From Candidatus Shapirobacteria bacterium (GTDB taxonomy: Bacteria > Patescibacteriota > Microgenomatia > UBA12405): a stretch of 49,291 nucleotides of DNA. Both the position numbers and the translations under genes were made by a program. Below, piece after piece: positions 20,159 through 25,864 of this stretch; the first letter of the stretch is position 1; every line of letters starts with the position of its first letter. The stretch spans positions 1 to 49,291 of the forward strand of contig JACPHO010000007.1 of NCBI GenBank assembly GCA_016188545.1. The letters are read 5' to 3'. The notes under the pieces were generated by a model. The model saw only the letters and a program-made list of their open reading frames with translations. It made no database searches and was not told the origin of the DNA.

Positions 20159-20537
20159 TGTTTGGATAAGATTGGCAGAAGGTCAGGTTGGGGTGGTTGA
20201 GTTTGTGAAATTTGTGAGAGATGGATCTAAGCAGTTTTATTTACCGGGAATTGTGGTCGCAGAGATAGAGTGGGTATTAAGGAGTGTCTACAAGAGAGAA
20301 ACGACTCAAATTATTGAGTTTGTAGATTCAATCGTGGGCATGAACAATTTGGTTGTATTTAGTGATATCAATATTAATAAGTCGTTGGATTATTTTCGAA
20401 AATATAATATTAAAATGATAGATGCCATGATTGCTTCAATTATGGATGGCAGTGATATGATTGTGAGTTATGATAGAGATTTTGACAAATTACCAGGGAT
20501 TAAGCGAGTTGAGCCAAAAGATCTGCTGGTGAAATAG
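20139..20537 (+). CDS. PIN-domain toxin (VapC-like)
   Basis: MNLIDSNVWIRLAEG...KMIDAMIASIMDGSDMIVSYDRDFDKLPGIKRVEP. Confidence 0.85.
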   Translation: MNLIDSNVWIRLAEGQVGVVEFVKFVRDGSKQFYLPGIVVAEIEWVLRSVYKRETTQIIEFVDSIVGMNNLVVFSDININKSLDYFRKYNIKMIDAMIASIMDGSDMIVSYDRDFDKLPGIKRVEPKDLLVK

Positions 20538-21831
20538 TTTTCTGTTCTCCAGTCGACATGTTTTTGAGGGTGACTTGATTGTTTTTGGCTTCATCTGGCC
20601 CAATCACTGCGACAAATGGTATGTTTTTGTCACTGGCATATTTGAACTGTTTACCGAGCTTGTCGGCGATAGGGTAGAGGAGCGTGTTGACATTATCTTT
20701 TCTCAATAAATTTGCCAACTTAATGCTTTCATTTTGTAATTCCGGAGAAAAAATGGATACTAAAACTTTGGCACTGGAAAGCGAATCTGGAACCATTTTT
20801 CGATCTTTTAAAATATCGCAAATTCTTTCAATACCAAATGAGCCACCGGTAGCCGGTATTTGTTTGGTGTCGCCAATGTAGCGGCCAATCAAATTATCAT
20901 AACGGCCGCAGCCGGCAATAGAGCCGACACCGCCATCAATTACCTCAAATTCCCAGACCGGGCCGGTGTAAGAGGCGAGTCCGCGGGCGATGGAAGTATC
21001 GAAACGATAGAGGTCTTCTGATATATTTAAAAGCTTAAAATAATCAAAAATTTGCTTTAATTCGTCCAGACTTTCTGAACCTATAGCTGTAGTGCCGACT
21101 GTAGATTTTAATTGTTCAATAATTTGATAATTATCCAAATTTAGGTAATTATTAGTATCGGTTATTTTTAGAATTTCGTTGGCCTGGTTTCCTTCCAGAC
21201 CTCTTTTTTTAGTTAGCTCCTGTAAGACGCCTTCACGACCGATTTTTTTTAGTTTGTCAACGGACATGCATATGCCATAAAACTTATCAGCAGGAATATT
21301 TAGATATTCTCGAAGACCATCTAAAAATTTTCGATTACTGATACGGGCGATATATTTATCAAAACCGAGATGGTCAACTATTTCTAAGCCCATTTGAATA
21401 AATTCGGCATCAGCTATCATGGAGGATGAGCCAATGGTGTCAGCATCACATTGAGTAAATTGACGATAGCGACCTTTTTGGGTATTTTCGGCGCGCCAAA
21501 CAGGTTGGATTTGGTAACGCTTGTAAGGAAAGGAAACTTTATCAAAATTTGCGGCTACTGCCCGGCACATCGCAGTCATTACTTCGTACTTAAGCATGAC
21601 ATCACGATTGCCGGGATCTTTGAATCGATAAAATTGTTTTTCGGCCTCTTCACCACTGACACCCAACATAAATTGGCTGTATTCTACGGCCGGAGTTTCG
21701 AGGGGTTCGTAGCCGTATTTTTCAAAAACCGATTTGAAAGTGTTGATGACAAATTCGCGTAATTTGATATCGGAGGCGAACCAATCATTGAAGCCACGAA
21801 GAGGTTGCGGTTTTAAAGAAGTATCAGTCAT
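20500..21831 (-). CDS. hisS: Histidyl-tRNA synthetase
   Basis: LRGFNDWF...KYGYEPLETPAVEY...VWRAENTQKGRYRQFTQCDADTIG; GLASYTGPVWEF; GGRYDNLIGRY-like. Confidence 0.95.
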   Translation of the reverse strand: MTDTSLKPQPLRGFNDWFASDIKLREFVINTFKSVFEKYGYEPLETPAVEYSQFMLGVSGEEAEKQFYRFKDPGNRDVMLKYEVMTAMCRAVAANFDKVSFPYKRYQIQPVWRAENTQKGRYRQFTQCDADTIGSSSMIADAEFIQMGLEIVDHLGFDKYIARISNRKFLDGLREYLNIPADKFYGICMSVDKLKKIGREGVLQELTKKRGLEGNQANEILKITDTNNYLNLDNYQIIEQLKSTVGTTAIGSESLDELKQIFDYFKLLNISEDLYRFDTSIARGLASYTGPVWEFEVIDGGVGSIAGCGRYDNLIGRYIGDTKQIPATGGSFGIERICDILKDRKMVPDSLSSAKVLVSIFSPELQNESIKLANLLRKDNVNTLLYPIADKLGKQFKYASDKNIPFVAVIGPDEAKNNQVTLKNMSTGEQKTISPADLLAQLA

Positions 21832-21846
21832 GGGTAGATTTTATCA

Positions 21847-23295
21847 TTAACCGGCTTCGAATATTTCTTTGTTGACGATTTTGCGGTTCCAATTTTCAGC
21901 AGCTTCCAATACATAAATTGTTGGTGGAAATTTAACGGTTGCTTCCCGGTCGACAACATAATTTTGATCGCGACTACGGCGTTCAGTGCTGAGTAGTACC
22001 GTATTTTCGCCGATATTGCTGAAGACTGCACCTTGGCCGGCGTTTACTGCCCAAATATTTCGGGCTACTTTGAGGGATTCCTGTCGCATAATGTTTACTG
22101 GATACAATTTCTTTTTAGCAAAAGTGTCATAGCGTCGTTCAACATCTTCCTCAAATTTATTCCCCCAGGTACGGTTAAAATCTGTATCTCTAAGTGCGGA
22201 TACCTGTGTCATTACTCGTCGGACGGTTTTGTCATATATGGGGTTGTTATTGGTTAGATTGGAAATTTTTTCTACCGAAAGTCGGCCATTGTATTTTTTT
22301 ATATATTCGCGGAGATTAGCCATATATTGTTCTAAGTTGGCCAAATTTTTCGGAGTAACCGGGCCGTTGGCACCGATTTCGGTATAATCAGTATCAGCGA
22401 CATACATTTGTAAGCCGGCATTGATACCATAATTTTCAAAAAGATCGACTTTATCGGCCATTTCATCAATGATCAAAGGTACAGGTTCTACCTTGGGATT
22501 AGACTTGTAAGTATCAAGATTGGGATTGAGTGTATAGCCACCCTGATAATCGAACTCATTGATGGTACAAAGCATGGTGGTTAAGTCTACCGATTCACCG
22601 GACAATCCTTTGACCACAACTTCCGGTAAACGAATTTTTTGCTCCCAAGTATCATCTGTTTTTAGGCGATCTATCTCAAATAGAAGCCCGGTAAACTGAA
22701 GAGCCTTTTCAGGATTTGAAGTTTTGGATAATCCCTGTTGAAGAGTATTGGCTAAACGCTGTTTTTGTTTGATCAATTCCCGTGTAGAAATTAAATTCAC
22801 TATTTCGTCATCAGATATTTGGCTAATTATATTTTGATCAATTAACTGGCGGGAATATTCAAGTTTGGGAGTATCATTGGGAATTCTTTGACCCAAAGAT
22901 TCTAAGTTATCCAGTTGCTGGCAGATTAGTCGGTTGTACAGGTCGTCATATTCAGGATCGGGTTGCTGTTTAAGGCGGGAAATTTCTCTTCCGGCAATTT
23001 CCTTTTGATATTTTAACTTCCTGTCGATAGCTCCTTGTTGGCGGCGGATGGCAGCCCTAGTTTCGTAACCAATTGTGTCAGCCCACCATTGACGAGCAAC
23101 AGTGGAAGTATCGGGCTGAGCAAGACTAGTATCCTTGTCCATTTGAGCCATTACATCAGCTTTTTCTTTTTGAGATATTTCCACAAGACTGGCTAAATCT
23201 TGAGACGAATTATATGGCGCCTGAAATTGGTCATAATTCCAAGATTGAGAGCGAGGGAGGACTTTGTTTTTAATATCAATGGGCTGAAAGGGCAA
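21847..23295 (-). CDS. Unknown 482-aa protein
   Basis: Long open frame, TTG start overlapping previous gene; family not recognised. Confidence 0.7.
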   Translation of the reverse strand: MPFQPIDIKNKVLPRSQSWNYDQFQAPYNSSQDLASLVEISQKEKADVMAQMDKDTSLAQPDTSTVARQWWADTIGYETRAAIRRQQGAIDRKLKYQKEIAGREISRLKQQPDPEYDDLYNRLICQQLDNLESLGQRIPNDTPKLEYSRQLIDQNIISQISDDEIVNLISTRELIKQKQRLANTLQQGLSKTSNPEKALQFTGLLFEIDRLKTDDTWEQKIRLPEVVVKGLSGESVDLTTMLCTINEFDYQGGYTLNPNLDTYKSNPKVEPVPLIIDEMADKVDLFENYGINAGLQMYVADTDYTEIGANGPVTPKNLANLEQYMANLREYIKKYNGRLSVEKISNLTNNNPIYDKTVRRVMTQVSALRDTDFNRTWGNKFEEDVERRYDTFAKKKLYPVNIMRQESLKVARNIWAVNAGQGAVFSNIGENTVLLSTERRSRDQNYVVDREATVKFPPTIYVLEAAENWNRKIVNKEIFEAG

Positions 23296-23461
23296 TGACC
23301 TGGTTTAAATCTGAAACAATGTTTCTGGCTAATTTTTGAGCATCCTGTTCTATAGCCTGGGAAACAGTAACTGATCTTTTGAACAGTCGCTGACCGAATA
23401 AACTATCCAACAAAGGATTGGACTTGACTTCATTTTTATAAATTTTCTCCGGTGATTTCAT
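23276..23461 (-). CDS. Small hypothetical protein
   Basis: MKSPEKIYKNEVKSNPLLDSLFGQRLFKRSVTVSQAIEQDAQKLARNIVSDLNQVIALSAH; between the two neighbours in the same direction. Confidence 0.5.
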   Translation of the reverse strand: MKSPEKIYKNEVKSNPLLDSLFGQRLFKRSVTVSQAIEQDAQKLARNIVSDLNQVIALSAH

Positions 23462-23489
23462 AATTTTTACTTTCATAATTTTTAATATT

Positions 23490-23735
23490 TTAATAACTTG
23501 ACCGATCACTTCTTTGTCTGGTTGGTAATCGGTCGGGAATAAATACATCAATGGTGGTCCGTTCACCATTTTCGATAGGTCCGGGACGACTGACCCAGCT
23601 ACCGGGTGGTTGATAAGAAATAGTAACGGTTTCTTCAGTCAGAAAGCCACCTGAAAATTTTTGGCATCGGGAAAGTATCGGTCCGTCCCGGCGCGGATCG
23701 TAATTTCTGATGCTAATGTCAACGGTTTTATTCAT
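23490..23735 (-). CDS. Small hypothetical protein
   Basis: 81-aa ORF, TAAAAT 6 nt before ATG. Confidence 0.5.
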   Translation of the reverse strand: MNKTVDISIRNYDPRRDGPILSRCQKFSGGFLTEETVTISYQPPGSWVSRPGPIENGERTTIDVFIPDRLPTRQRSDRSSY

Positions 23736-23765: not shown

Positions 23766-23794
23766 CAAAAAAATCCCCCAAGAGCGGGGGATTT
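23766..23794 (-). terminator. Rho-independent terminator/attenuator in front of the hisS-containing operon
   Basis: On minus AAATCCCCC-GCTCTT-GGGGGATTTTTTT, 9-bp perfect stem and T run. Confidence 0.9.
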
Positions 23795-23816
23795 GAGAAT
23801 TTAAATAAGATTTGTT

Positions 23817-23897
23817 TTAGGTCGAAACAACACCCCGCTGGTTGGTGACCACGGTATGGGTGTGATGGAAAAAACAATTTGTCAGAGTAAAATTCAT
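23817..23897 (-). CDS. 26-aa leader peptide with His codons
   Basis: MNFTLTNCFFHHTHTVVTNQRGVVST*, between TATAAT and the terminator. Confidence 0.65.
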   Translation of the reverse strand: MNFTLTNCFFHHTHTVVTNQRGVVST

Positions 23898-23908
23898 ATT
23901 ATTTGTTG

Positions 23909-23936
23909 ATTATATACCATATCTCATAATATTCAA
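23909..23936 (-). promoter_or_regulatory. Promoter of the leader transcript
   Basis: On minus TTGAAT-N16-TATAAT; -10 ends 11 nt before the leader ATG. Confidence 0.7.
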
Positions 23937-23985
23937 TGGCCAAAAGAACCATTGATCAGTTAGAAGTGTTTATGAAGAGTTTGTA

Positions 23986-24474: not shown

Positions 24475-25578
24475 CAGTATTCAAATGACTCGGTGAAGAG
24501 TAAAATCAATGTCATGAAAAAAGATATGGTTGTGCCTATTGTTCAAGTAAAAGTGTAATTAGAAAAGGTGTCAGACGAGGAAAAATTAAATACTTTTGTA
24601 AAGATTGTCAACATTGGTTCCAAATTAATCGAACCATCACCAAGAAATTTGATACGAAAAAGGTTTTAAATCTTCATTTGTCTGGACTATCATTTCGAAA
24701 TTTAGGTGAGACTCTGGACATTAACGCTTCAACTGTTTATCGAAAGATTAAACCACTGTTAGAAGAGATGCCACATTGTGCTGATCTCTCCCGAGGCAAT
24801 GACAAGCACTATTCTGGCATCCTTCTCCTAGACGGCAAATACACTCATGTCAAAGGCTACAACGACAAGATTCCTGTTATCTATGGAATTGATTATCTAA
24901 CTCATGACATTGTTCATTTTGTTTTATCAAAAGGTGAAAACTACCAGACCTCTCTATCGTTCTTTCAATCTCTTCGGCTATTGGGTTATCCCCTTAAAGC
25001 TCTAGTGTGTGATGACAATCAAAATTTCCAATTAGCTTGTAGCCGAGTCTATCCTAAATCAGTAATTCAAATTTGTCACAATCACTACAAAGAAAACATT
25101 AGAAGACAGCTATTTGTTAGAAGTGACTCAACCTATCGACCATTTATGTATGAGATTGAACAATTGTTTTCTAGAAGAAGATCAATAGCAGAATTTTTCT
25201 CAATCATCAGAAAAATTCTGCTTAAGTACGGAAATGATCCTAAATGTCAGGGAGTAATCATTGATATTGAAAAAAGAAAGAATGTTCTTCTAGCCTATAT
25301 GCTCGATAAACATATTCCTAGAACCACAAACCTAATTGAATGTTTCAACTCTCATCTCGAAGGCAGACTAAAAAGTGTTAAAGGTTTCGAATCAATTGGT
25401 CATGCCAGATTATGGTTTAATGCCTACTTTATCAGAAGAAGATTAAAGCCGTTTACTGACTGTACCGGACAATTTAAGAAACTAAATGGTAAATGTTCAC
25501 TTGAAACCGTAATTCAAAACGAAACAAAATTTCAAACACTAAAACAAAAGTTCAGGTGACCGTTTTTGCAACGGTACG
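24419..25578 (+). mobile_element. Insertion sequence, about 1160 bp, 9-bp target duplication ATCTAGGAC
   Basis: ATCTAGGAC at 24410-24418 and 25579-25587; terminal inverted repeats ACCGTTGTAATTTGGTCAC / ACCGTTGCAAAAACGGTCAC. Confidence 0.92.
24514..25559 (+). CDS. DDE transposase, Mutator/IS256-superfamily-like (IS1249-type), needs -1 frameshift near start
   Basis: Zinc ribbon GCAYCSSK...YFCKDCQHWF in frame upstream of 24678; LLLDGKYTHVKG, ALVCDDNQNFQLACSRVYP, RTTNLIECFNSHLEGRLKSVKGF. Confidence 0.8.
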
Positions 25579-25591
25579 ATCTAGGACTGGG

Positions 25592-25666
25592 GGTGGCTGA
25601 AGGGACTCGAACCCTCGACCCTTCCCTTCACAGGGGAATGCTCTAACCAACTGAGCTACAGCCACC
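25592..25666 (-). tRNA. tRNA-His (GTG), with G-1
   Basis: GGTGGCTGTAGCTCAGTTGGTTAGAGCATTCCCCTGTGAAGGGAAGGGTCGAGGGTTCGAGTCCCTTCAGCCACC; anticodon loop CTGTGAA. Confidence 0.96.
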
Positions 25667-25725: not shown

Positions 25726-25755
25726 AAAAATAAATCCGCCAGTTTTTGGCGGATT
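25726..25755 (-). terminator. Rho-independent terminator
   Basis: On minus AATCCGCC-AAAAACT-GGCGGATT-TATTTTT. Confidence 0.75.
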
Positions 25756-25864
25756 CTGTCGATACAGTAATTACCGCCAATTACTTGGTGGTATGGTGAT
25801 GGTTTAAGATCACGATTACTGAATTCATTGTCAGTATTTTATCAATAAATAGGGTGATGTCAAA

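Follow-up and report, generated by a model that had tools for sequence, protein, structure and literature searches.

The window, i.e. the whole 49,291-nt stretch of DNA that was analysed, is concluded with high confidence to carry two ribosome-mediated transcription attenuators that sense charged tRNA-His, leader 1 acting on tRNA-His and leader 2 on the hisS operon (Table 1). In this way an uncultured bacterium with a tiny genome seems to detect a lack of histidine, through ribosome stalling on two His-rich leader peptides; relatives carry switches of this type for several further amino acids. What was observed, in sequences taken from metagenome assemblies and by computation only, comprises the parts of the attenuators and how far they are conserved, complementarity in excess of shuffles, a predicted switch, and leader codons that match the downstream genes. 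A His attenuator upstream of hisS had been put forward in the original prediction, and this interpretation is supported by conservation, by the exclusive stems and by the lack of a downstream consensus promoter; it was incomplete, with the second His attenuator, upstream of tRNA-His, having been missed.

Table 1. Features of the two His leaders and of their gene neighbourhood in the window (asterisk, stop codon)
Feature	Position	Strand	Basis or remark
Leader 1 promoter TTGACA-16-TAAAAT	25836..25863	(-)	-10 box 7 nt before ATG
Leader peptide 1 MNSVIVILNHHHTTK*	25781..25828	(-)	HHHTTN/HHHTSK and position in common with relatives
Leader 1 segment 2 TTGGCGG	25774..25780	(-)	directly 3' of stop codon
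Leader 1 segment 3 CCGCCAA	25746..25752	(-)	5' arm of terminator
Leader 1 intrinsic terminator AATCCGCCA-AAAAC-TGGCGGATT	25732..25756	(-)	sequence inspection
tRNA-His(GTG), gene controlled by leader 1	25588..25666	(-)	1.7 kb upstream of leader 2
Mutator-family transposase, between tRNA-His and leader 2	24678..25559	(+)	PF00872, 4.4e-8
Leader 2 promoter TTGAAT-16-TATAAT	23909..23936	(-)	10/12 consensus matches; transcript start would be a few nt 5' of ATG
Leader peptide 2 MNFTLTNCFFHHTHTVVTNQRGVVST*	23817..23897	(-)	26 codons + stop; core common to 17 family genomes
Leader 2 regulatory codons CAT CAC ACC CAT (His His Thr His)	23856..23867	(-)	three His codons, interrupted by Thr
Leader 2 protector (1:2) hairpin ACACC..CCGUGG / CC.GCGG.GGUGU	23830..23863	(-)	paired-cell count, alignment
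Leader 2 segment 2 AGCGGGG	23833..23839	(-)	exclusive-stem score; alignment
Leader 2 segment 3 CCCCGCT	23783..23789	(-)	partner of segment 2 (antiterminator) or part of terminator
Leader 2 intrinsic terminator AAATCCCCCGCTCTTGGGGGATTT-TTTT, with T tract	23767..23794	(-)	sequence inspection
First downstream ORF, 81 aa, unknown	23490..23735	(-)	ORF list, profile search
Second downstream ORF, 97 aa, unknown; overlaps first in another frame	23276..23569	(-)	ORF list, profile search
482-aa protein, unknown	21847..23295	(-)	G037 homologue also directly upstream of hisS
hisS, histidyl-tRNA synthetase	20500..21831	(-)	TIGR00442, 4.5e-107

The promoter, the 26-codon ORF and the terminator of leader 2 were all found on the minus strand where they had been placed, and AGCGGGG and CCCCGCT are exact complements at the positions proposed, giving a 7-bp exclusive stem. 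The stop codon, said to lie about 14 nt from AGCGGGG, is separated from it by 13 nt, and a tRNA-His was located at the claimed distance of 1.7 kb upstream. The operon had been described as three unknown genes plus hisS; hisS was confirmed, and of the three unknown genes those of 81 and 97 aa overlap each other in separate frames. These two ORFs (23276-23735) are possibly one frameshifted gene.

The exclusive stem of leader 2 reached -15.5 kcal/mol, whereas dinucleotide shuffles averaged -7.9 (p=0.0125), and the folding of the leader also beat shuffles (z = -2.44). The His codons of leader 2 are few (three) and interrupted by Thr, which is a point against the attenuator. In leader 1, TTGGCGG is complementary to CCGCCAA of the terminator with p=0.0075 versus shuffles. 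When the 49-kb window was scanned on both strands for a terminator preceded by a short ORF in which six codons include three or more His, leaders 1 and 2 were the only two matches, both upstream of His genes. The features that define a his/trp-type attenuator are present: a short ORF carrying codons cognate to the downstream gene, a terminator between leader ORF and gene, and an antiterminator exclusive with the terminator (the two p values above); selection of the fold by ribosome position is supported by the folding model only.

In the proposed mechanism, segment 2 would have two possible partners, the His-codon region upstream (giving the protector) and segment 3 downstream (giving the antiterminator); segment 3, if not captured, would pair with segment 4 as the terminator. 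When His-tRNA is plentiful, the ribosome would reach the stop codon and cover segment 2, and the terminator would form. With scarce His-tRNA, a stall at the His codons would open the protector, segment 2 would capture segment 3 and RNA polymerase would read through. Ribosome stalling, read-through and the physiological response to charged tRNA are inferred only, as there were no expression data.

The switch was modelled by folding with the ribosome at given positions and the mRNA hidden up to 12 nt beyond the A-site position. With the ribosome waiting at the last His codon the antiterminator formed with a modelled probability of 0.80, which dropped to 0.14 once the ribosome stood at the stop codon. 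A switch was predicted for 30 of 36 leaders, whereas the 40 shuffle sets gave 5.8 on average and never more than 10; in a few leaders the modelled pairing at the stop codon stays at 0.3-0.5, which speaks against the attenuator reading. Pairing of segments 2 and 3 was better than in shuffles in 25 of 37 leaders (p<0.05), and the Fisher value for this excess (4e-27) overstates independence because the genomes are related. The position of segment 2 depends on the leader, being at the stop codon in leader 1 (about -2 to +10) and about 11-24 nt before the stop in leader 2; a few extended leaders depart from this. Between families, a different segment 2 comes with a different segment 3, as in TTGGCGG/CCGCCAA, TTGGGG/CCCCAA, GGAGGG/CCCTCC and AAGTGTGGGTT/ACCCGCACT.

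Conservation of the leader ORF, of its His codons and of the exclusive stems in relatives, with covariation in the stems, had been named as checks of the prediction. Leader 2 was found in 17 family genomes with the conserved core HHTHTVVTxxRG, and at least two core His codons are kept in all 17, single positions being variable (for example HQYH, HRTH, NHCH). In an alignment of 11 leader 2 sequences, the first two CAY codons and a later CAY are invariant; all 66 antiterminator cells are paired (slid controls 45-64%), as are 92.6% of the protector cells (slid controls 36-60%). One antiterminator pair occurs as G-C, G-U and A-U. Pairing is thus kept in the exclusive stems, but covariation in the leader 2 alignment scored no better than shuffled letters; it was not significant because most paired columns never vary, and was not used as support.

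His leaders upstream of tRNA-His or hisS were found in 35 genomes, 22 of them in the family of the window. In 14 family genomes leaders 1 and 2 flank tRNA-His upstream of hisS, the pair of the window being separated by an insertion. The other 13 genomes lie outside the family in the same class, with a His leader upstream of hisS (G047, G051, G093, G103, G115, G138, G149, G159, G195, G235, G253, G335 and G348), and in G047, of another family, tRNA-His stands between the His leader and hisS. In a strict scan of 80 hisS-upstream regions of the class, picked by hisS similarity alone, nine His leaders were found in sense and none in antisense orientation; the same scan found no His leader in 90 hisS-upstream regions or genomes of other classes of the phylum. 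The genomes are related, and the thresholds of the leader scanner were fixed during the work, after the first cases had been seen. Two His-like ORFs near hisS (G031 and G089) are doubtful and were left out of the counts; MNDNFKHRHHH, MNTDFKHRHHH and MSNKNHHH were rejected as N-termini of longer proteins.

The genes behind leader 2 differ among genomes, including unknown proteins, racemase-like, peptidase and nucleoside hydrolase genes and diverged hisS types. On a Candidatus Shapirobacteria contig (L031, apparently identical with the G003 contig) tRNA-His is flanked by the two leaders; leader 2 there is 78% identical over 159 nt to that of the window, with a different gene behind it. The hisS of the window is 77% identical to that of G003 and about 40-54% identical to those of other family members with nearly the same leader 2. 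Judged from these identities, leader 2 was kept while hisS was exchanged or diverged. In three loci (L036, L113 and L322) a REP-like repeat, GTCATTGCGAGC..GAAGCAATC, is inserted between the conserved core of leader 2 and the terminator.

Leader 1, tRNA-His, leader 2 and hisS follow in this order in most family relatives; with the leaders in series, hisS would therefore have to pass two checks and tRNA-His one. The 5' end of tRNA-His lies 5-26 nt after the leader 1 terminator stem in nine genomes, and 5-13 nt after it in seven, a gap that leaves no promoter room, so tRNA-His must be transcribed through the terminator there. In the window the distance is 66 nt, and a separate weak promoter for its own tRNA-His is thus possible. 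In the relatives tRNA-His and leader 2 are adjacent without a transposase between them; in the window a transposase and a kinase-like gene part them, and leader 2 is preceded by a promoter of its own. In G024, G030, G034 and G004 the last base of the tRNA's encoded CCA is also the first base of the leader 2 AUG, and the same CCA/AUG sequence is present at a contig end in G033. The AUG of 25 leader-1-type ORFs follows the -10 box at 5-10 nt (median 7), a spacing to be expected of leaderless transcripts.

Six synthetases were compared, because the leader 2 model weakly matched regions upstream of trpS and pheS. Leaders were found upstream of hisS (His 8, one also counted as Ile), trpS (Trp 5), pheS (Phe 7 and Leu 1), thrS (Thr 3), leuS (Leu 5) and ileS (Ile 11). 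The leader codons match the downstream synthetase in 39 of 41 cases, compared with a mean of 7.9 and a maximum of 21 in 100,000 permutations. The switch model fits the His, Trp and Phe leaders and some Thr and Leu leaders, and none of the 11 Ile leaders; the mechanism at ileS may differ, since the simple 2:3 switch fails there. Further Thr- and Ile-like pattern matches (NFYITTT, SIII) were rejected as N-termini of MetRS, glycosyltransferases and other genes.

Several single leaders were also observed. Upstream of trpS in the genome that the window belongs to (G000 contig C8, L359 1068-1139 +) stand a Trp leader, MKLTVSQSWWQVSSPSAGDIDLS*, and a terminator; at the pheS of the window, rplT is followed by a terminator, but a Phe leader is absent. 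A very short upstream ORF with at least three Ile, often with a AAAATCCTTC..GAAGGATTTT-like terminator, precedes 11 of 27 ileS genes (L458-L487). The leader MSFIKLSRSWRLQLAQSGDVLMA* lies upstream of a racemase-like gene and trpS (L328, G031). Phe-rich leaders occur in L326 (G275) and L327 (G315), the former upstream of sugar-kinase-like and DAHP-synthase-like genes, possibly reflecting biosynthetic attenuation.

It is rather probable that leader-peptide attenuation plays within this class of CPR bacteria, at hisS, trpS, pheS, thrS, leuS and ileS, the role that the T-box has in Firmicutes, and that the His locus is a serial pair with the tRNA gene between, where the leader 2 AUG sometimes shares the terminal A of CCA, so that maturation of the tRNA may compete with translation of the leader for one and the same transcript.

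The operons suggest His-related functions for the racemase-like, M20 hydrolase and nucleoside hydrolase genes. A racemase-like protein stands between leader and hisS in five genomes, with histidine racemase as the best family (CntK model 2e-19, below its cut-off, two tested; PDB 9cr1, 1e-10, one tested). These proteins are DapF-fold-like and closest to histidine racemase (L100 1547-2380 +, L105 5048-5746 -, L169, L101 and L201). An M20-family hydrolase between leader 2 and hisS in five genomes (L113, L185, L148, L164 and L175; two tested) could possibly scavenge His-peptides. A nucleoside-hydrolase-like gene, named by sequence motif only, follows the His leader in three genomes (L319, L324 and L325) and adjoins hisS where the contig shows it.

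It is very improbable that the hairpin before hisS is merely the ordinary terminator of an upstream transcript, with hisS transcribed from its own promoter and the short ORF incidental. Such a hairpin would stop any transcript entering it, and a TAAAAT precedes the ATG at 23735; a dedicated promoter past the terminator that drives all hisS expression would, according to the original prediction, have refuted attenuation. However, no 9-of-12 sigma-70 site was found between the leader 2 terminator and this ATG, so the TAAAAT has no matching -35 and no consensus promoter exists past the terminator. The ORF, the His codons and the exclusive stem are kept in 17 genomes despite different downstream genes, and seven relatives have no promoter room between the leader 1 terminator and tRNA-His.

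Anticodon mimicry was considered because GUG, the His anticodon, is invariant: HisRS would bind the ACCGUGG of leader 2 in the manner of thrS and repress its own gene, with the ORF secondary. ACCGUGG is indeed invariant in 11 of 11 aligned leaders, silent codon positions included, but GUG sits in a predicted stem and not in a loop, which explains its invariance, and mimicry by GUG was rejected on this ground. ACCGUGG is absent from leader 1 and from the leaders in other families, which nevertheless keep the His codons and the switch, and the cognate codons at trpS, pheS, thrS, leuS and ileS would be left unexplained, making such repression hardly credible. T-boxes control hisS in Bacilli (PMC2965389), but a T-box riboswitch sensing uncharged tRNA-His directly is practically ruled out here: neither the window region nor any of 20 leader loci was matched by the T-box covariance model (RF00230), and transcripts of ~130 nt starting at or near the AUG leave little room for specifier and antiterminator domains. 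Two attenuators driven by the translating ribosome remain the preferred reading.

Among known leaders, Rfam His_leader (RF00514) matched neither the window region, with E up to 10 allowed, nor any of the 20 leader loci. Phe_leader (RF01859) matched weakly over the whole leader 2 element (37.1 bits, E=2e-4, gathering score 55); this identity was rejected, the match being below gathering with the main helix largely mispaired, and the codons being His and the gene hisS. No paper linking Patescibacteria/CPR with leader-peptide attenuation was found in the literature searched, in agreement with the original prediction, whose author knew of no such description in CPR bacteria. To our knowledge, leader-peptide attenuation has not been described for any tRNA gene. 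Known regulators are few in CPR bacteria, and many amino-acid pathways are missing from them. The leaders offer a direct, testable answer to how they sense amino acids, with the ribosome reading the charged-tRNA level; by inference, this level would act as a gate for the synthetase and, in the case of His, for the tRNA as well.

The enterobacterial his operon attenuator (RF00514) has the same His-codon leader peptide, exclusive 1:2/2:3/3:4 stems and intrinsic terminator, whereas here hisS and a tRNA gene are controlled instead of biosynthesis, in a CPR host and with apparently leaderless leader mRNAs. Corynebacterium is known to have leader peptides that lack a ribosome-binding site (PMC4046766). 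Leader-peptide control of aminoacyl-tRNA synthetase genes is known at gamma-proteobacterial pheST and has been proposed for trpS and leuS in Streptomyces (PMC1262725); those are isolated cases of the same attenuation, whereas here six synthetases in one small-genome group are concerned, together with a tRNA gene and serial attenuators. A His leader peptide was predicted upstream of hisS* and hisZ in Bacilli (PMC2965389); there too, a His-codon ORF and a terminator precede a hisS paralogue, but neither a tRNA gene nor a serial arrangement was described. Salmonella mgtCBR likewise has two leader ORFs in series, tandem attenuators with different signals, ATP and proline (PMC3641672); there two signals meet in one operon, whereas here both leaders sense His with a tRNA gene between them. 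The type of mechanism is already known, and what is new is its use in CPR bacteria, the serial arrangement and the control of a tRNA gene.
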